Assembly: GCF_000022205.1 (NCBI RefSeq)
Contig: NC_012029.1
Coordinates: forward strand, 1,426,001 to 1,490,000
DNA length: 64,000 nucleotides
Source: Halorubrum lacusprofundi ATCC 49239
Lineage (GTDB): Archaea; Halobacteriota; Halobacteria; Halobacteriales; Haloferacaceae
Direction: 5' to 3'
The position numbers and the translations under genes were made by a program. The notes under the pieces were generated by a model. It saw only the letters and a list, made by a program, of their open reading frames with translations, was not told where the DNA came from and searched no databases. Each line of letters opens with the position of its first letter. The first letter of the stretch is position 1. Below, piece by piece: positions 8,877 to 17,073 of this stretch.

Positions 8877-9452
8877 TCAGGCGTCGGTATCGGTATTGTC
8901 GTCGGCGTCGGTATCGGTATTGTCGTCGGCGTCGGTATCGGTGAAATCGTCGATGGCGATGGCGACCGATCGCTCTCCCGACCGCTCCTCGACCAGCGCC
9001 GCGAACCGGTCGAGCGCGCGCCGACAGACGGTAACGTACCAGGCTGCGACGATCGGTACCTCGACGACAACGCGGCTACGGTCGGACTCGCCGGCGTAGC
9101 TGTCGACGCGGTGGCCGGTCGCAGGGATCCCGGCGATCCGCCAGTCCCAGCGTCGCCCGTTGCACGCGGTCACGCGGAACGGGAGCCACGCGCCGCCGAC
9201 GCGGACCCGCCCCGTCGTTCCGGTCGTCACGTACCGATCGCCGCTTTCGACTGCGTCGATAGCCGGCCCCCAGTCGGGCCACGTGTGGGTGTCGCGGAGC
9301 GCCTCGGCGGCGACCGCCGGCGCGACCGCGACATCGCGACCCACGGCGAGCGTCGCTCCCTCGCGGACGACCGTCGACGCCGATTCGGCGCCACACCCTC
9401 CGATATCGAAACATGCGTCCGATTCGTCGCCGAAACGAGACCGATAAGTCAC
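8877..9452 (-). CDS. SRPBCC-family protein with repetitive acidic tail
   Basis: This 191-aa protein has the START/SRPBCC (polyketide cyclase-like ligand-binding) pattern: EALRDTHTWPDWGPAIDAVES, a GRVRVGGAWLPFRVT strand region and a C-terminal helix (CRRALDRFAALVEERSG). Haloarchaea have many such proteins of unknown ligand. The start is GTG; no in-frame ATG exists in the first half. The last about 21 residues are copies of DDNTDTDA encoded by a 24-bp tandem repeat. It converges with the VOC gene. Confidence 0.75.
   Translation of the reverse strand: MTYRSRFGDESDACFDIGGCGAESASTVVREGATLAVGRDVAVAPAVAAEALRDTHTWPDWGPAIDAVESGDRYVTTGTTGRVRVGGAWLPFRVTACNGRRWDWRIAGIPATGHRVDSYAGESDRSRVVVEVPIVAAWYVTVCRRALDRFAALVEERSGERSVAIAIDDFTDTDADDNTDTDADDNTDTDA
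8881..8942. repeat. 24-bp tandem repeat in the SRPBCC gene
   Basis: Two full units (8881-8904, 8905-8928) and one partial unit (8929-8942) of a 24-bp sequence beginning GCGTCGGTATCGGTATTG. As 24 is a multiple of three, each unit encodes eight acidic residues and a change in copy number keeps the frame. Confidence 0.9.
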
Positions 9453-9828: not shown

Positions 9829-10344
9829 ATGGTCGGAGTCACACTCGGGTTAGCCGGGATCGTAACGGTGACGGTGTTACTGGCGCTCAGCGCGTTCTTC
9901 TCGAGTTCGGAGACCGCGATCTTCTCGCTGCCGGCGGAGTGGTTCGAGCGGCAGGCCGCCACGGACGATCCCCGAGCGCAGGTCCTGAAGGAGCTCTACG
10001 ACGACCCCCACCGGCTGCTGGTGACGCTGCTCGTCGGGAACAACGTCGTCAACATCGCGATATCGAGTATCGTGACCGTTCTGGTTGCCAGTTACCTCCC
10101 CTCCGGTGCCGCGGTCGCGGTGGCGACCGTGTGTACGAGCTTTCTCGTCCTCGTGTTCGGCGAGATCGTCCCCAAGGCGTTCGGCCTCGGAAACGCCGAG
10201 CGGTGGTCGCTGCGGATCGCATCCCCGATCCGACTGGTCGAGCGCGTCCTCTCGCCGCTCATCACGTTGTTCGACGGGATCACCCGTCGGATGAACGCGT
10301 ACATCAGCGGCGACGCGAATATCGAGAAGCCGTACACGGATTGA
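9829..10344 (+). CDS. DUF21/CNNM-domain membrane protein (lacks CBS domains)
   Basis: A 171-aa membrane protein comprising only the DUF21 (CNNM transmembrane) domain. Diagnostic segments are LSAFFSSSETAIFSLP in the first helix, LLVTLLVGNNVVNIAISSI and FGEIVPKAFGLGNAERWSL. Full-length CNNM/CorC-like proteins continue into paired CBS domains and a C-terminal domain; this one stops right after IEKPYTD, which I believe is a recurrent short form in haloarchaea rather than a truncation. A role in Mg or other cation transport is inferred from the family. Confidence 0.88.
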   Translation: MVGVTLGLAGIVTVTVLLALSAFFSSSETAIFSLPAEWFERQAATDDPRAQVLKELYDDPHRLLVTLLVGNNVVNIAISSIVTVLVASYLPSGAAVAVATVCTSFLVLVFGEIVPKAFGLGNAERWSLRIASPIRLVERVLSPLITLFDGITRRMNAYISGDANIEKPYTD

Positions 10345-11612: not shown

Positions 11613-12611
11613 ATGATCGAAGTGGAGGGGCTGCGGAAGACGTACGGCGACTTCGCGGCCGTCGTCGACAGCACCTTCTCCGTCGCGGAAGGCGAGGTGT
11701 TCGGCATCGTCGGCCCGAACGGCGCCGGGAAGACGACGACGCTGAAGGTGCTCGCCGGGCTCGTCGACCCCAGCGACGGCGAGGTCGAGGTCGCCGGCTT
11801 CGCCTCGGACGACCCGGAGATGCGCCGGCAGTTGGGGTTTCTCCCCGAGGAGTCGCCCCTCTACGAGGAGATGACGCCGCTGTCGTATCTGCGCTTCTTC
11901 GCCGACCTGTACGACGTGCCGCGAAAGGCCGCGAACGAGCGGATCGAGGCCGCGCTCGACCGACTCGAACTGGACCACCGTGAGCGCCGCCTCGGCGACA
12001 TGTCGAAGGGGATGAAACGCAAGGTCGCCATCGCCCGGTCGCTGGTCAACGACCCCGACGTGCTCGTGTACGACGAGCCGGCCTCGGGGCTCGATCCGGT
12101 GACGACGAACTCCGTGCTTGAGTTCACCCGCGAGCTGCGTTCGACCGGAAAGACCGTCGTGTTCTCCGCGCACAACCTCTATCACGTCGAATCCGTCTGC
12201 GATCGCGTCGCGGTGATGGACGAGGGCCGGATCGTCGCCCGCGGCAGCGTCGACGGGATCCGCGAGCGACACGGCGAGACGACCTACCGCGTGTTCACCG
12301 ACGTGTCTCCGGCCCGAACCGACGCGCTGGCAGATATCTTCGACGACATCGACGCCGCGATCGAGGAAGTCGGCGACCGGTTCCGCACGACTGTCCCGAC
12401 GATGGACGCGGTCGCGGCGGTTCGCGAAGCCGCCGCCGCGGCGGGCGGCGAGGTCGTCGACATCCGCACGCGAGAGCCGAGCTTGGAGGACGTGTTCCTC
12501 GACATCGTCGGGCGGCCGATGCCGGGGCGGTACACCGGGGGCGGTGGGGACGCAGCGTCGACTGCGGAGACAGAGACGGATCGGTTGACGGAATCGGAGG
12601 AGGCCGAGTGA
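11613..12611 (+). CDS. ABC-2 type transporter ATP-binding protein
   Basis: A 332-aa single-domain ATPase of the NatA/DrrA type. Walker A is GPNGAGKT at 34-41; the signature region is DMSKGMKRKVAIARSL and Walker B is VLVYDEPASGLDP. A regulatory C-terminal domain of about 100 residues ends in an acidic tail. It is the first gene of a three-gene operon and overlaps the next gene by 4 bp (GTGA). The partners encode membrane subunits, so this is an exporter or membrane-complex ATPase of unknown cargo, NatAB-like. Confidence 0.92.
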   Translation: MIEVEGLRKTYGDFAAVVDSTFSVAEGEVFGIVGPNGAGKTTTLKVLAGLVDPSDGEVEVAGFASDDPEMRRQLGFLPEESPLYEEMTPLSYLRFFADLYDVPRKAANERIEAALDRLELDHRERRLGDMSKGMKRKVAIARSLVNDPDVLVYDEPASGLDPVTTNSVLEFTRELRSTGKTVVFSAHNLYHVESVCDRVAVMDEGRIVARGSVDGIRERHGETTYRVFTDVSPARTDALADIFDDIDAAIEEVGDRFRTTVPTMDAVAAVREAAAAAGGEVVDIRTREPSLEDVFLDIVGRPMPGRYTGGGGDAASTAETETDRLTESEEAE

Positions 12612-14560
12612 CCGACCGAAGCGACCGAGTTCGGCACCGTATTCGGGGCGCACAGCGTCGCCTTCGCCGGATCCTCCGCGTCGCTCGCTGGGAGACGGTT
12701 CGGGCGAGCGGCGGCGTCGACCGGCGGACCCTGCTCGCGGCGCTCGCGCTCCTACTCGTCGCCGGCGGCGTCCTCGGCGGCGGGCTCGCGGCCGGCGTCG
12801 TCGGGCTCGACGTCGACCGCGACGTGTACCGGGTCGCCGTCGACGGCGACTCCCCGTACGCGGATGCGGTCGAGGCCGAGCCGTCACTCACAGCGGTCCC
12901 TCTCGGGAGCGCCGCGCTCGGCGACACGGCCGACCTTGTCGTGTTTGACGGCAGGCAGAGTGGGTCGATCGAGACCGTTGCCGTTCGCGCCAGCGACACG
13001 CGGAAGGGCGAGGCCGCGGCCGCCGAGTTCCGGGAGGCAGTCAAGGCGCACAACGAGCGACTGATGGCGGCCGAGGAGAATCGGACCGCCGCGTTCCCGA
13101 TCACCGTCACGCTCCAGTACATCGGCCGGACCAGCGGGCTCGACGACGGCTCGACGCTCGGCGGGGACGGCTCCGAGAGTGACGGCGGCTCCGGACGCGC
13201 CAGTGGCGACGATTCGGGCGACGCGAGCGGAGGTACCGACGGCGGGCTCACCGGCGGCGACACCGCGAGCGAGGGCAGCGGGGGCGACGATGGAGATAAC
13301 GGCGGATTCGCCGTCCCCTCGGTTGGCGGCGCGGCGTTCGGCGCCGACACGGTCGGGTCGCCGGGGTCGATCTCGCCGCCCTTCCCGTTCGTCTCGCTCC
13401 TCCTCGCGTTCGTCTTTCTCGTGCCGATGAACTTCCTCATCCAGGCGTACGGCTCGTCGGTCCTCGACGAGCGGACGAACCGGCGCGGGGAGCCCCTGCT
13501 CGTCACGCCGCTCTCGCCGGTCGACATCGTCGCGGGGAAGACGCTCCCGTACGTCGCGGTCGCGGCGCTCGTCACGACGCTCATCGCAGTCGCCGTCGGC
13601 GGCGGGGCGCTCTCGGTGATCGCCGTGCTTCCGGTGGCGTTGACCTTCCTCGCGGCCACGTTCGTCGGCGCGATGTTCGCGCGGTCGTTCAAGGAGCTCA
13701 CCTTCGTCACGGTCGGCGTGAGCGTCCTCCTCACGACGTACGCGTTCGTGCCAGCGATCTTCACGAACGTCACGCCCGTGGCGCTGGTGTCGCCGCTCAC
13801 GCTGGTCGTCTTCGATCTGCAGGGCGAGGCGGTGGGAATCGGCGAAATCCTCTTCTCGACCGGCCCGATGGCGGTGGGGGCGGCGCTCCTGTTCGGGCTC
13901 GGGCTCGGGGTCTACCGCGAGGAGGACATGTTAACCCAGAAGCCGGTCGGGCGGAAGTTCCTCGATGCGCTGGCGGTGCGACTCTCGGGTATTGGGAAGC
14001 CGAACTCGGGCGGCAGGTCGCCGCGAGAACGACTCCGTGCGCTCGCGCCGATCGCGTTCCTCACGGCCTGCACGATCCCCTTCGTGTTCGTCGCGGAGCT
14101 GCTGGCCGTCGCGCTACTCTTCGCACTGCCGGTGACCGTGTCGATCCCCGTGCTCTTGGTGACAATCGCGTTCATCGAGGAACTTGCCAAGAGCATCCAC
14201 CTCTACGCCGGGTTCGAGCGCGGCGCCTTCGCCCGGACCGATCGGGTCGCCGTCGCGGTCGGGACCGCCTCCGCGGTCGGCTTCTTCCTCGCGGAGAAGG
14301 CCACCGCGGTCGTGCAGGCGGTCGGGCTCACGGAGCTGTACGTCGGCCGCGCCGCGTTCGGGAGCGTGGCGGGGATGGAGGGGCTCCCGCCGATCGCCAT
14401 TGTGGGGTTGTTCTTCGCGCCCCTCCTGCTTCACGGGTTCGCGACGACCGTCGCCGCAGTGGGCGCGAGCCGGAGCCGGACGTACTACGTCCTGACGCTG
14501 GCGCTGGCGACGCTGCTTCACGCGGCGTACAACTTCGGGGTGGTGCGCCTCTATGCGTAA
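12608..14560 (+). CDS. ABC-2 permease fused to a PrsW-like intramembrane protease domain
   Basis: A 650-aa membrane protein. Residues about 20-440 look like an ABC-2 permease: one N-terminal helix, a large extracytoplasmic domain containing a Gly/Ser/Asp-rich linker, then six or so helices with VLDERTNRRGEPLLVTPLS, a motif shared with NatB-type permeases. Residues about 480-650 form a second membrane domain with FIEELAKS, GFFLAEKAT, a His in LLHGFATTV and a final HAAYNFG, matching the EExxK/GxxxE/His layout of PrsW (M82-like) glutamic intramembrane proteases. The start is GTG overlapping the ATPase stop, and it overlaps the next permease by 8 bp. Whether the protease domain is active is not known. 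Confidence 0.8.
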   Translation: MTDRSDRVRHRIRGAQRRLRRILRVARWETVRASGGVDRRTLLAALALLLVAGGVLGGGLAAGVVGLDVDRDVYRVAVDGDSPYADAVEAEPSLTAVPLGSAALGDTADLVVFDGRQSGSIETVAVRASDTRKGEAAAAEFREAVKAHNERLMAAEENRTAAFPITVTLQYIGRTSGLDDGSTLGGDGSESDGGSGRASGDDSGDASGGTDGGLTGGDTASEGSGGDDGDNGGFAVPSVGGAAFGADTVGSPGSISPPFPFVSLLLAFVFLVPMNFLIQAYGSSVLDERTNRRGEPLLVTPLSPVDIVAGKTLPYVAVAALVTTLIAVAVGGGALSVIAVLPVALTFLAATFVGAMFARSFKELTFVTVGVSVLLTTYAFVPAIFTNVTPVALVSPLTLVVFDLQGEAVGIGEILFSTGPMAVGAALLFGLGLGVYREEDMLTQKPVGRKFLDALAVRLSGIGKPNSGGRSPRERLRALAPIAFLTACTIPFVFVAELLAVALLFALPVTVSIPVLLVTIAFIEELAKSIHLYAGFERGAFARTDRVAVAVGTASAVGFFLAEKATAVVQAVGLTELYVGRAAFGSVAGMEGLPPIAIVGLFFAPLLLHGFATTVAAVGASRSRTYYVLTLALATLLHAAYNFGVVRLYA

Positions 14561-15608
14561 CCGGGACAGCCGGCTGACGATCGCCGGGCGAGAGCTGTCG
14601 GGGTTGCGCGCGGAGAAGACGATCCTGCTCGCGATCGCGATCCAGCTGTTCATCGCCGCGTTCTCGTCGTTCCTCGTGGTCGGGCTCGTCTCGATGTACG
14701 ACCCCGGATCGCTCGGCGGTGCAGAGGTCGAGGTGGCGGGCGCCGGCGACGCCGTGACCGACCTCGAACGCGCCGCGAGCGAGGTCGGCGGGGCCTCGGT
14801 CACGCGCTACGAGGACGCCGGGGCGGCGCGGCTCGCCTTCGACCGTAACGCCGCCGACGCGGTGGTGGTCGCGAACCGGAACGACAACGGCGGGATCTCG
14901 GTGACGGTCACCGCCCCGGACGCCACGGTTGAGACCACCGTGATCGTCGTCCAGCTCCGCGATCTGCTCCAGACCTACGAGCGACAGGAGCGTGCGGACC
15001 GGGTCGCGTTCCTGAGCGAGTCGCCGCTCCCGCTGCCCGAGCGCACCGGGACCAGTCCGTACTTCACGTTCACTTACACCGTGTTGATCCCGGTACTCGT
15101 CTTCCTCCCGGTCTTCATCTCGGGGTCGCTCGTGGTCGACTCGATCACCGAGGAGATCGACGAGGGCACCTTCGAGTTGCTCCGCGTCGCCCCCGTCACG
15201 CTCGGCGAGATCGTCGACGGGAAGGCGCTGGCGGCGGTCGCGATCGCCCCCGGACAGGCGCTCCTGTGGCTCCTCCTCCTCCGCGTGAACGGGACGCCGG
15301 TCGCGAACGTCCCCTCGATCCTCGTCCTCATGACCGCCCTCACCACGCTGGTCGTCGCGCTCGCGATCGCTATCTCCGCACTCGCACCCGATCGACGCGC
15401 GGCGCAGTTCCTCTACTCGATCGGCGTGCTGGTCCTTTTCGGTGGCGCCACGGCGATGGCCGGCGGGCCCGCGAACGCGGTCGCTCGGCTCGCGATCGAC
15501 AGCGCCGACGTGACGACGACCGCGCTGGTGGTCGCCTACGTCGGTATCGCCGGGGTCGCGTATGTCGGGGTTCGGACCCTCGTCGCGGAGAACGGGTTCG
15601 AGAACTGA
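14553..15608 (+). CDS. ABC-2 type transporter permease
   Basis: A 351-aa permease that completes the operon. It has an N-terminal helix, an extracytoplasmic domain of about 150 residues and then about five helices. The segment SLVVDSITEEIDEGTFELLRVAP is the counterpart of the motif in the preceding protein and typical of NatB/ABC-2 permeases. The start at 14553 lies inside the previous gene (8-bp overlap), so expression is coupled. The two permeases probably form a heterodimer served by the single ATPase. Confidence 0.88.
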   Translation: MRNRDSRLTIAGRELSGLRAEKTILLAIAIQLFIAAFSSFLVVGLVSMYDPGSLGGAEVEVAGAGDAVTDLERAASEVGGASVTRYEDAGAARLAFDRNAADAVVVANRNDNGGISVTVTAPDATVETTVIVVQLRDLLQTYERQERADRVAFLSESPLPLPERTGTSPYFTFTYTVLIPVLVFLPVFISGSLVVDSITEEIDEGTFELLRVAPVTLGEIVDGKALAAVAIAPGQALLWLLLLRVNGTPVANVPSILVLMTALTTLVVALAIAISALAPDRRAAQFLYSIGVLVLFGGATAMAGGPANAVARLAIDSADVTTTALVVAYVGIAGVAYVGVRTLVAENGFEN

Positions 15609-16416: not shown

Positions 16417-16441
16417 TAAATACACGTAACTGTGTACTGTG

Positions 16442-16684
16442 ATGTCGACGAAAACGATCTCGCTCGACGAGGAGGCCTATGAGCGGCTCAAATCGCACAA
16501 GCGGGAGGGTGAGTCGTTTTCCGACGTGGTCAAGCGGATCGCCGGCGAGCGGTCGTGGACGGAAGTCGCGGGGATCCTTTCAGAGGACGAAGCCGACGAA
16601 CTCGAATCCCTCGTCGAGGAGGGGCGGTCCCGTTCCCGCGATCGGCGCGAACGCCTCGATGCGGACGTGCGGAGCGACGAATGA
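16442..16684 (+). CDS. vapB: VapB-type antitoxin
   Basis: An 80-aa antitoxin. The N-terminus MSTKTISLDEEAYERLKSHK is the standard ribbon-helix-helix-like opening of archaeal VapB antitoxins, followed by GESFSDVVKRI and an acidic, flexible C-terminus that would wrap the toxin. Its stop overlaps the toxin start (ATGA), the usual toxin-antitoxin coupling. A GTG directly before the ATG is an alternative start. VapB and the VapBC complex normally repress their own promoter. Confidence 0.88.
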   Translation: MSTKTISLDEEAYERLKSHKREGESFSDVVKRIAGERSWTEVAGILSEDEADELESLVEEGRSRSRDRRERLDADVRSDE

Positions 16685-17073
16685 TCGAGGACACGACGTT
16701 CATCATCGACGTTCTACACGACGATCGGGACGCGATTCAATATCTCGACCTCATTGAACGAGAGAATCGACCGGAAAAGGTCTCTTCAATAACGGTGCTC
16801 GAACTGTACGAAGCGGTCCCGCAGTTGAACGCTCCAGAGGAGCGTCGACAGGCGATCCTCGACGTACTCGACACGTGCCACGCGGTCGTCGCCGACGAGA
16901 CCGTGATGCGAAAGGCCGGAAAGATTTCTGGCTCGCTTCGCGCCCGTGATGAGGAGATCGACAGGGAAGACTGCATCATCGGAGCGACCGCGTTGTTGAA
17001 CGACGAGCCTGTCGTGACTCGTAATCACGACCACTTCGAGCGCATCGACGGTCTCGACGTCGAGACGTACTGA
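16681..17073 (+). CDS. vapC: VapC-type PIN-domain ribonuclease toxin
   Basis: A 130-aa PIN-domain toxin that cleaves RNA, in the family usually tRNA or rRNA. Acidic residues of the active site can be placed: an Asp in TTFIIDVLHDD, Glu in VLELYEAV, Asp in REDCIIGATALL and the final DHF motif after VVTRNHD. Length and domain are intact, so the module looks functional. It overlaps the antitoxin gene by 4 bp. It lies directly upstream of an essential isoprenoid gene. Confidence 0.92.
   Translation: MIEDTTFIIDVLHDDRDAIQYLDLIERENRPEKVSSITVLELYEAVPQLNAPEERRQAILDVLDTCHAVVADETVMRKAGKISGSLRARDEEIDREDCIIGATALLNDEPVVTRNHDHFERIDGLDVETY

Follow-up and report, generated by a model that had tools for sequence, protein, structure and literature searches.

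An ABC-2 permease fused to a PrsW-type intramembrane protease domain in haloarchaea

Results

The window analysed here is a 64,000-nucleotide stretch of the Halorubrum lacusprofundi ATCC 49239 genome. At 12608-14557 it carries a single reading frame with a GTG start that encodes a protein of 650 aa, an ABC-2 permease followed by a PrsW-type domain. The gene sits between that of an ABC ATPase (upstream) and that of a second permease (downstream). The features of the locus are as follows.

11613..12611, plus strand: ABC ATPase with ABC_tran and a DrrA1-3 C-terminal domain, 332 aa (Pfam)
12608..14560, plus strand: ABC-2 permease and PrsW-type intramembrane protease domain, fused; 650 aa, GTG start, stop codon included
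12608..13945, plus strand: permease half, residues 1-446 (ABC2_membrane_3 match; AF2 model with type V ABC exporter fold)
14009..14557, plus strand: PrsW-type domain, residues 468-650 (hhalign; PF13367 matches of orthologues; structure model)
14177..14191, plus strand: motif 1, EELAK (E524, E525, K528), invariant in 150/150 orthologues
14282..14299, plus strand: motif 2, FFLAEK (F559, E563, K564), invariant in 150/150
14432..14434, plus strand: motif 3, H609, invariant in 150/150
14519..14533, plus strand: motif 4, HAAYN (H638, N642); H638 invariant, position 642 N or D
14553..15608, plus strand: second ABC-2 permease, 351 aa (ABC2_membrane_3, E 1e-15, over the cut-off)

The GTG of the fusion at 12608 overlaps the stop codon of the ATPase gene (GTGA; the stop ends at 12611), and its TAA at 14558-14560 overlaps the second permease, whose ATG is at 14553, giving an 8-base overlap. 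Both gene junctions overlap, which is the geometry of a translationally coupled three-gene operon. An earlier note on this DNA had described a tight operon with an ATPase and a second permease, and a permease and a PrsW-like domain in one reading frame; the overlapping junctions confirm the first description and the single 650-aa frame the second, with coordinates that are exact. The ATPase matches ABC_tran (E 1.1e-29) and DrrA1-3_C (E 1.9e-9). A defence or phage origin was considered and rejected: the fusion has no match in PHROGs or PADLOC, and the PADLOC matches of the ATPase are those of a generic ATPase.

Three other features lie within a few kilobases of the operon. A minus-strand ORF at 8877-9452 has at its end a short tail of TDADDN peptide repeats, which arises from a tandem DNA repeat near 8880-8930. 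At 9829-10344 lies a short CNNM transmembrane-domain protein (171 aa, Pfam E 2.5e-41) that lacks the CBS domains usual for its family. Downstream of the ABC operon, at 16439-17073, an antitoxin-like ORF precedes a PIN-domain protein (Pfam PIN, E 1.5e-10), a pair that is likely a VapBC-type toxin-antitoxin.

In the AF2 model the permease half consists of an N-terminal helix, TM1, an extracytoplasmic domain and TM2-TM6; the extracytoplasmic domain contains a disordered, low-complexity linker rich in glycine and acidic residues. Residues 262-432 match ABC2_membrane_3 with E 7.8e-6, which is below the Pfam curated cut-off. Residues 16-443 of the model match ABCA4 (Z 14-15), ABCA7, NosY and ABCG2, and type V exporters overall, including the mycobacterial efflux pump 8k1n, score Z 13-15 against the full-length model. 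TM1, an extracytoplasmic domain, five further transmembrane helices and a linked ATPase upstream are all present, as in ABC-2/type V exporters. None of the library models matched by the window proteins is a NatB model; "NatB-like" was the earlier note's own word. With the extracytoplasmic domain placed outside, our reading of the model is that the positively charged linker 438-470 and the loops 538-544 and 621-624 would be cytoplasmic.

The PrsW family corresponds to PF13367 and MEROPS M82, with a Pfam curated cut-off of 23.5 bits. The window protein itself has no Pfam PrsW match, and no library model recognises its C-terminal 180 residues as a protease. The PrsW assignment therefore rests on its relatives. 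The C-terminal domains of four orthologues from other genera exceed the PF13367 cut-off, scoring 34.6 (L040), 31.3 (L044), 29.3 (L045) and 25.7 (L039) bits, with a best E of 1.7e-8. When a profile of 105 orthologue domains was compared by hhalign with one of free-standing haloarchaeal PrsW proteins, the match had E 7.5e-11 and a probability of 97%, with EExxK, FxxxE, H and HxxxN in register with canonical PrsW. As a control, the domain profile was aligned to the protein's own permease half and gave nothing. The earlier note had proposed comparison with both PrsW and CPBP, and for CPBP the same 105-domain profile returned E 0.59 and a probability of 0.1. Membership of CPBP/Rce1 (PF02517) is rejected on this value and on the motifs, since the domain has EExxK in place of EExxxR, and E563 replaces the His of the CPBP FxxxH.

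In the structure model the PrsW-type domain comprises one leading transmembrane region and four core transmembrane helices bearing EExxK, FxxxEK, H and HxxxN. Modelled in isolation (pLDDT 89), its best structural match is APH-1 of gamma-secretase (Z 9.3, VIA-align). APH-1 and PrsW belong to one superfamily, and the transmembrane domains of ABCA and LptF type share their topology with APH-1 (PMC6588880). ABC-type transmembrane domains appear in the same match list, at Z 6-7 against the isolated domain. Because type V ABC transmembrane domains share the APH-1 topology, the structural line is weak and the fold alone was not used for the family call. The match of SpdC (6u0o) to the full model (Z 6.1) was likewise treated as weak. 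Foldseek against the PDB gave no significant match for the full-length or the isolated-domain model, and a sequence search of PDB chains with the domain profile found nothing relevant.

Conservation was assessed in an alignment of 150 fused orthologues, 108 of them haloarchaeal and 42 from other families outside the order but in the same phylum. Within the C-terminal domain just eight columns never vary: E524, E525, K528, F559, E563, K564, H609 and H638. Position 642 is N in 142 sequences and D in 8; the corresponding motif is HxxxD in PrsW and HxxxN in PrsW relatives (PMC4602095). EExxK lies on helix 509-537 of the full-length model. F559/E563 and H609 align with two further features of free-standing PrsW, its FxxxE motif and the extra conserved His that the family carries in its fifth transmembrane helix. 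The motif residues are predicted to fall near the middle of the last four (core) helices. The remainder of the domain diverges at about the pace of the permease half (distance correlation r 0.94), and because the divergence of the two halves tracks in this way they have long been inherited together. The motif residues are invariant, and are the sole invariants of the domain, in all 150 orthologues, so the domain appears to be a PrsW of long standing in which selection maintains the catalytic set.

The evidence that the C-terminal domain is of PrsW type can be summarised as (i) the Pfam matches of orthologues; (ii) the profile-profile comparison; (iii) the invariant motifs; (iv) the structure model, weak when taken alone. 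The PrsW-like identity proposed in the earlier note is thus borne out by the profile match and by the orthologues above the PF13367 cut-off. The motifs it had picked out (FIEELAKS, GFFLAEK, LLHGF, HAAYN) are present and are not chance, eight of their residues being invariant; retention of the Glu-Glu and His residues in orthologues, which it had named as a check, holds in 150/150.

The fusion gene occurs in 49 of 59 close relatives. Several near-complete haloarchaeal genomes are without it, so its job is dispensable. Among named genomes, 239 stretches encode a relative; the 80 that were kept are all haloarchaeal and include Halorubrum, Haloferax, Halobellus, Natrinema, Halorussus and Haloplanus. 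A single-protein search of a phylum sample gave matches in 57 of 120 genomes. Judged by kinship and gene content, the carriers outside the haloarchaea look like methanogens and Archaeoglobales.

The second permease lies directly downstream of the fusion in 45/45 loci of the phylum set. In orthologous haloarchaeal loci the order ATPase-fusion-permease is nearly constant; in most non-haloarchaeal loci the ATPase adjoins the fusion and is divergently transcribed. Six loci, all non-haloarchaeal (L223, L227, L229, L231, L201 and L209), have no adjacent ATPase within the fetched flanks, and in these the fusion and the second permease are still adjacent. Halorussus salinisoli has a second, solitary copy of the fusion (L104:5959-7920) that keeps all catalytic residues; neither an ABC ATPase nor a second permease lies within 6 kb of it. 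When all reading frames were compared across about 50 haloarchaeal and 42 other loci, no gene for a cargo, toxin, immunity protein or regulator was conserved beside the module, nor was any neighbour other than the second permease and the ATPase.

Discussion

Sequence comparison establishes the fusion itself, its PrsW family, the strict conservation of its catalytic set and its pairing with a second permease and, usually, an ATPase. We propose that these genes encode a heteromeric type V (ABC-2) exporter with a built-in PrsW-type protease, which would cut a membrane substrate and extract or export the product; we put the probability of this reading at roughly 0.55. In the complex a single ATPase would join with two distinct permeases, of which one has the PrsW-type domain at its C-terminus. 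The protease, if active as we infer, would cut inside the bilayer a substrate that is already seated in the membrane; candidates are signal-peptide remnants, short transmembrane peptides and tail fragments. The ATP-driven permease pair would then extract, flip or export the cleaved product. With no conserved cargo gene adjoining the module, its substrates, of which there may be many, probably have their genes elsewhere.

Protease activity, a substrate resident in the membrane and removal of the product are the conjectural parts of this proposal. In its favour are the PrsW identity with its invariant catalytic residues, the overlapping genes of the operon, the exporter-type fold of the permease half, the absence of any other conserved neighbour and the retention of the fusion with its adjacent second permease outside the order, within the same phylum. 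Weighed against it are the solitary copy in H. salinisoli, the six loci without an adjacent ATPase and the genomes that lack the gene.

Intramembrane proteases and ABC exporters are known to act in one peptide-processing and export pathway in Firmicutes, where Eep/RasP is paired with EcsAB/PptAB. The closest tested precedent is the production and export of linear peptides derived by cleavage of lipoprotein leaders, for which both Eep and EcsAB are needed (PMC7157817). The fusion might be a single complex doing the job of this pair. The Firmicutes components are encoded by separate genes and their protease is a site-2-type metalloprotease (RseP/Eep), not a PrsW, and we claim no sequence kinship between the proteases. 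PrsW has also been proposed to serve as both processing peptidase and transmembrane conduit in toxin extrusion (Zhang et al. 2012, PMC3482391). In that setting PrsW is joined to a toxin; in the present fusion its partner is an ABC permease, and the neighbourhood shows no conserved toxin or immunity gene.

A broader version of the proposal, which we consider doubtful, is a general archaeal machine that processes and extracts remnants of signal peptides or lipoprotein leaders. It would possibly form part of a missing lipoprotein-processing step, as archaea have no known homologue of SPase II (PMC4343526), and would release exported peptides that could signal.

Three rival explanations remain, in the order signalling, non-peptide hydrolysis and scaffold. 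In the first, which is appreciably less probable than the exporter proposal and yet the strongest of its rivals, the ABC part would sense or bind a ligand (a membrane-active peptide, say, or envelope damage), and the ATP cycle would switch on the PrsW domain to cleave a membrane-tethered regulator, with no bulk export. The analogy is with B. subtilis PrsW and its target RsiW. PrsW, where characterised, acts in signalling as a site-1 protease (PMC4602095; PMC9263693), and signalling domains are found fused to some PrsW domains (PMC3482391). Against this, neither haloarchaea nor the other orders show a conserved regulator gene next to the module. Moreover, archaea have, to our knowledge, no sigma or anti-sigma factors. 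The same two points leave the anti-sigma-like partner suggested in the earlier note unsupported; processing of the cargo, the other target that the note suggested, remains a reasonable inference.

In the second rival the domain would be a membrane-embedded hydrolase of a non-peptide bond, in an ester or lipid-linked cargo, and would mature what is exported, a role that DidK has for didemnin. DidK, a CAAX-family relative, cleaves an ester and couples this cleavage to product release, for which it is needed (PMC10811503). The permease half does resemble the lipid exporters ABCA4 and ABCA7 in fold, but that match is general to type V exporters, and the motifs are those of PrsW, which is known to cleave peptides. 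We regard this reading as unlikely.

The third rival, a catalytically dead scaffold that would hold substrate or partners for the exporter as APH-1 does in gamma-secretase, draws on the structural matches of the isolated domain, among which APH-1 ranks first. It fits poorly with the invariance in 150/150 orthologues of the motif residues, including E-E and both His, and APH-1 itself has Q-E, not E-E (PMC6588880); we consider it improbable. Chance resemblance, with the C-terminal helices an ordinary ABC-type transmembrane bundle that has no PrsW kinship, could appeal to the topology shared by ABCA-type, LptF-type and APH-1 domains and to the missing Pfam match of the window protein alone, but is refuted by the orthologue Pfam matches, the profile comparison (a PrsW match against nothing for the permease half) and the invariant catalytic residues, which leaves it scarcely any probability.

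Because NF041647 (NCBIfam, ABC permease/CPBP intramembrane protease) models an ABC/CPBP fusion, the joining of an ABC permease to an intramembrane protease is already known as a kind. By the name and match pattern of that model, a permease is likewise followed in one chain by a protease of the same superfamily, and CPBP proteins of the H. lacusprofundi genome match its last third. Membership of NF041647 was rejected for the window protein, whose score of 9 bits falls short of the 435-bit cut-off, and whose protease is PrsW-like (EExxK, FxxxE, extra His), not CPBP. What is new here is that the protease partner is PrsW. Canonical PrsW (PF13367) shares all four motifs and their order (EExxK, FxxxE, H, HxxxN/D) and stands alone, whereas a short core version is fused here to an ABC permease. 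A free-standing canonical PrsW is encoded in the same genome outside the window (G000:C2:44696-45277, E 3.8e-43), and the fusion is not its only PrsW. The type V exporters that share the fold of the permease half (ABCA4/ABCA7, NosDFY, 8k1n; Z 13-15) include, as far as we know, none with a protease domain.

We found no description of a PrsW/ABC-permease fusion in the open-licence literature. In a review of haloarchaeal membrane proteases one PrsW-like protein is named, from Haloferax volcanii, and the fusion goes unmentioned (PMC9263693). One database record from this family carries just the name "ABC transporter permease subunit". The fused domain is too diverged for Pfam in most of the members scanned, which are thus invisible to it as proteases. 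The fusion ties an intramembrane protease and an ABC exporter together in one polypeptide, and its catalytic set is never lost in the sampled members of the archaeal phylum. The suspected coupling, in which the protease would cut and the ABC exporter would clear, can thereby be put to a direct test in tractable hosts, Haloferax for one.
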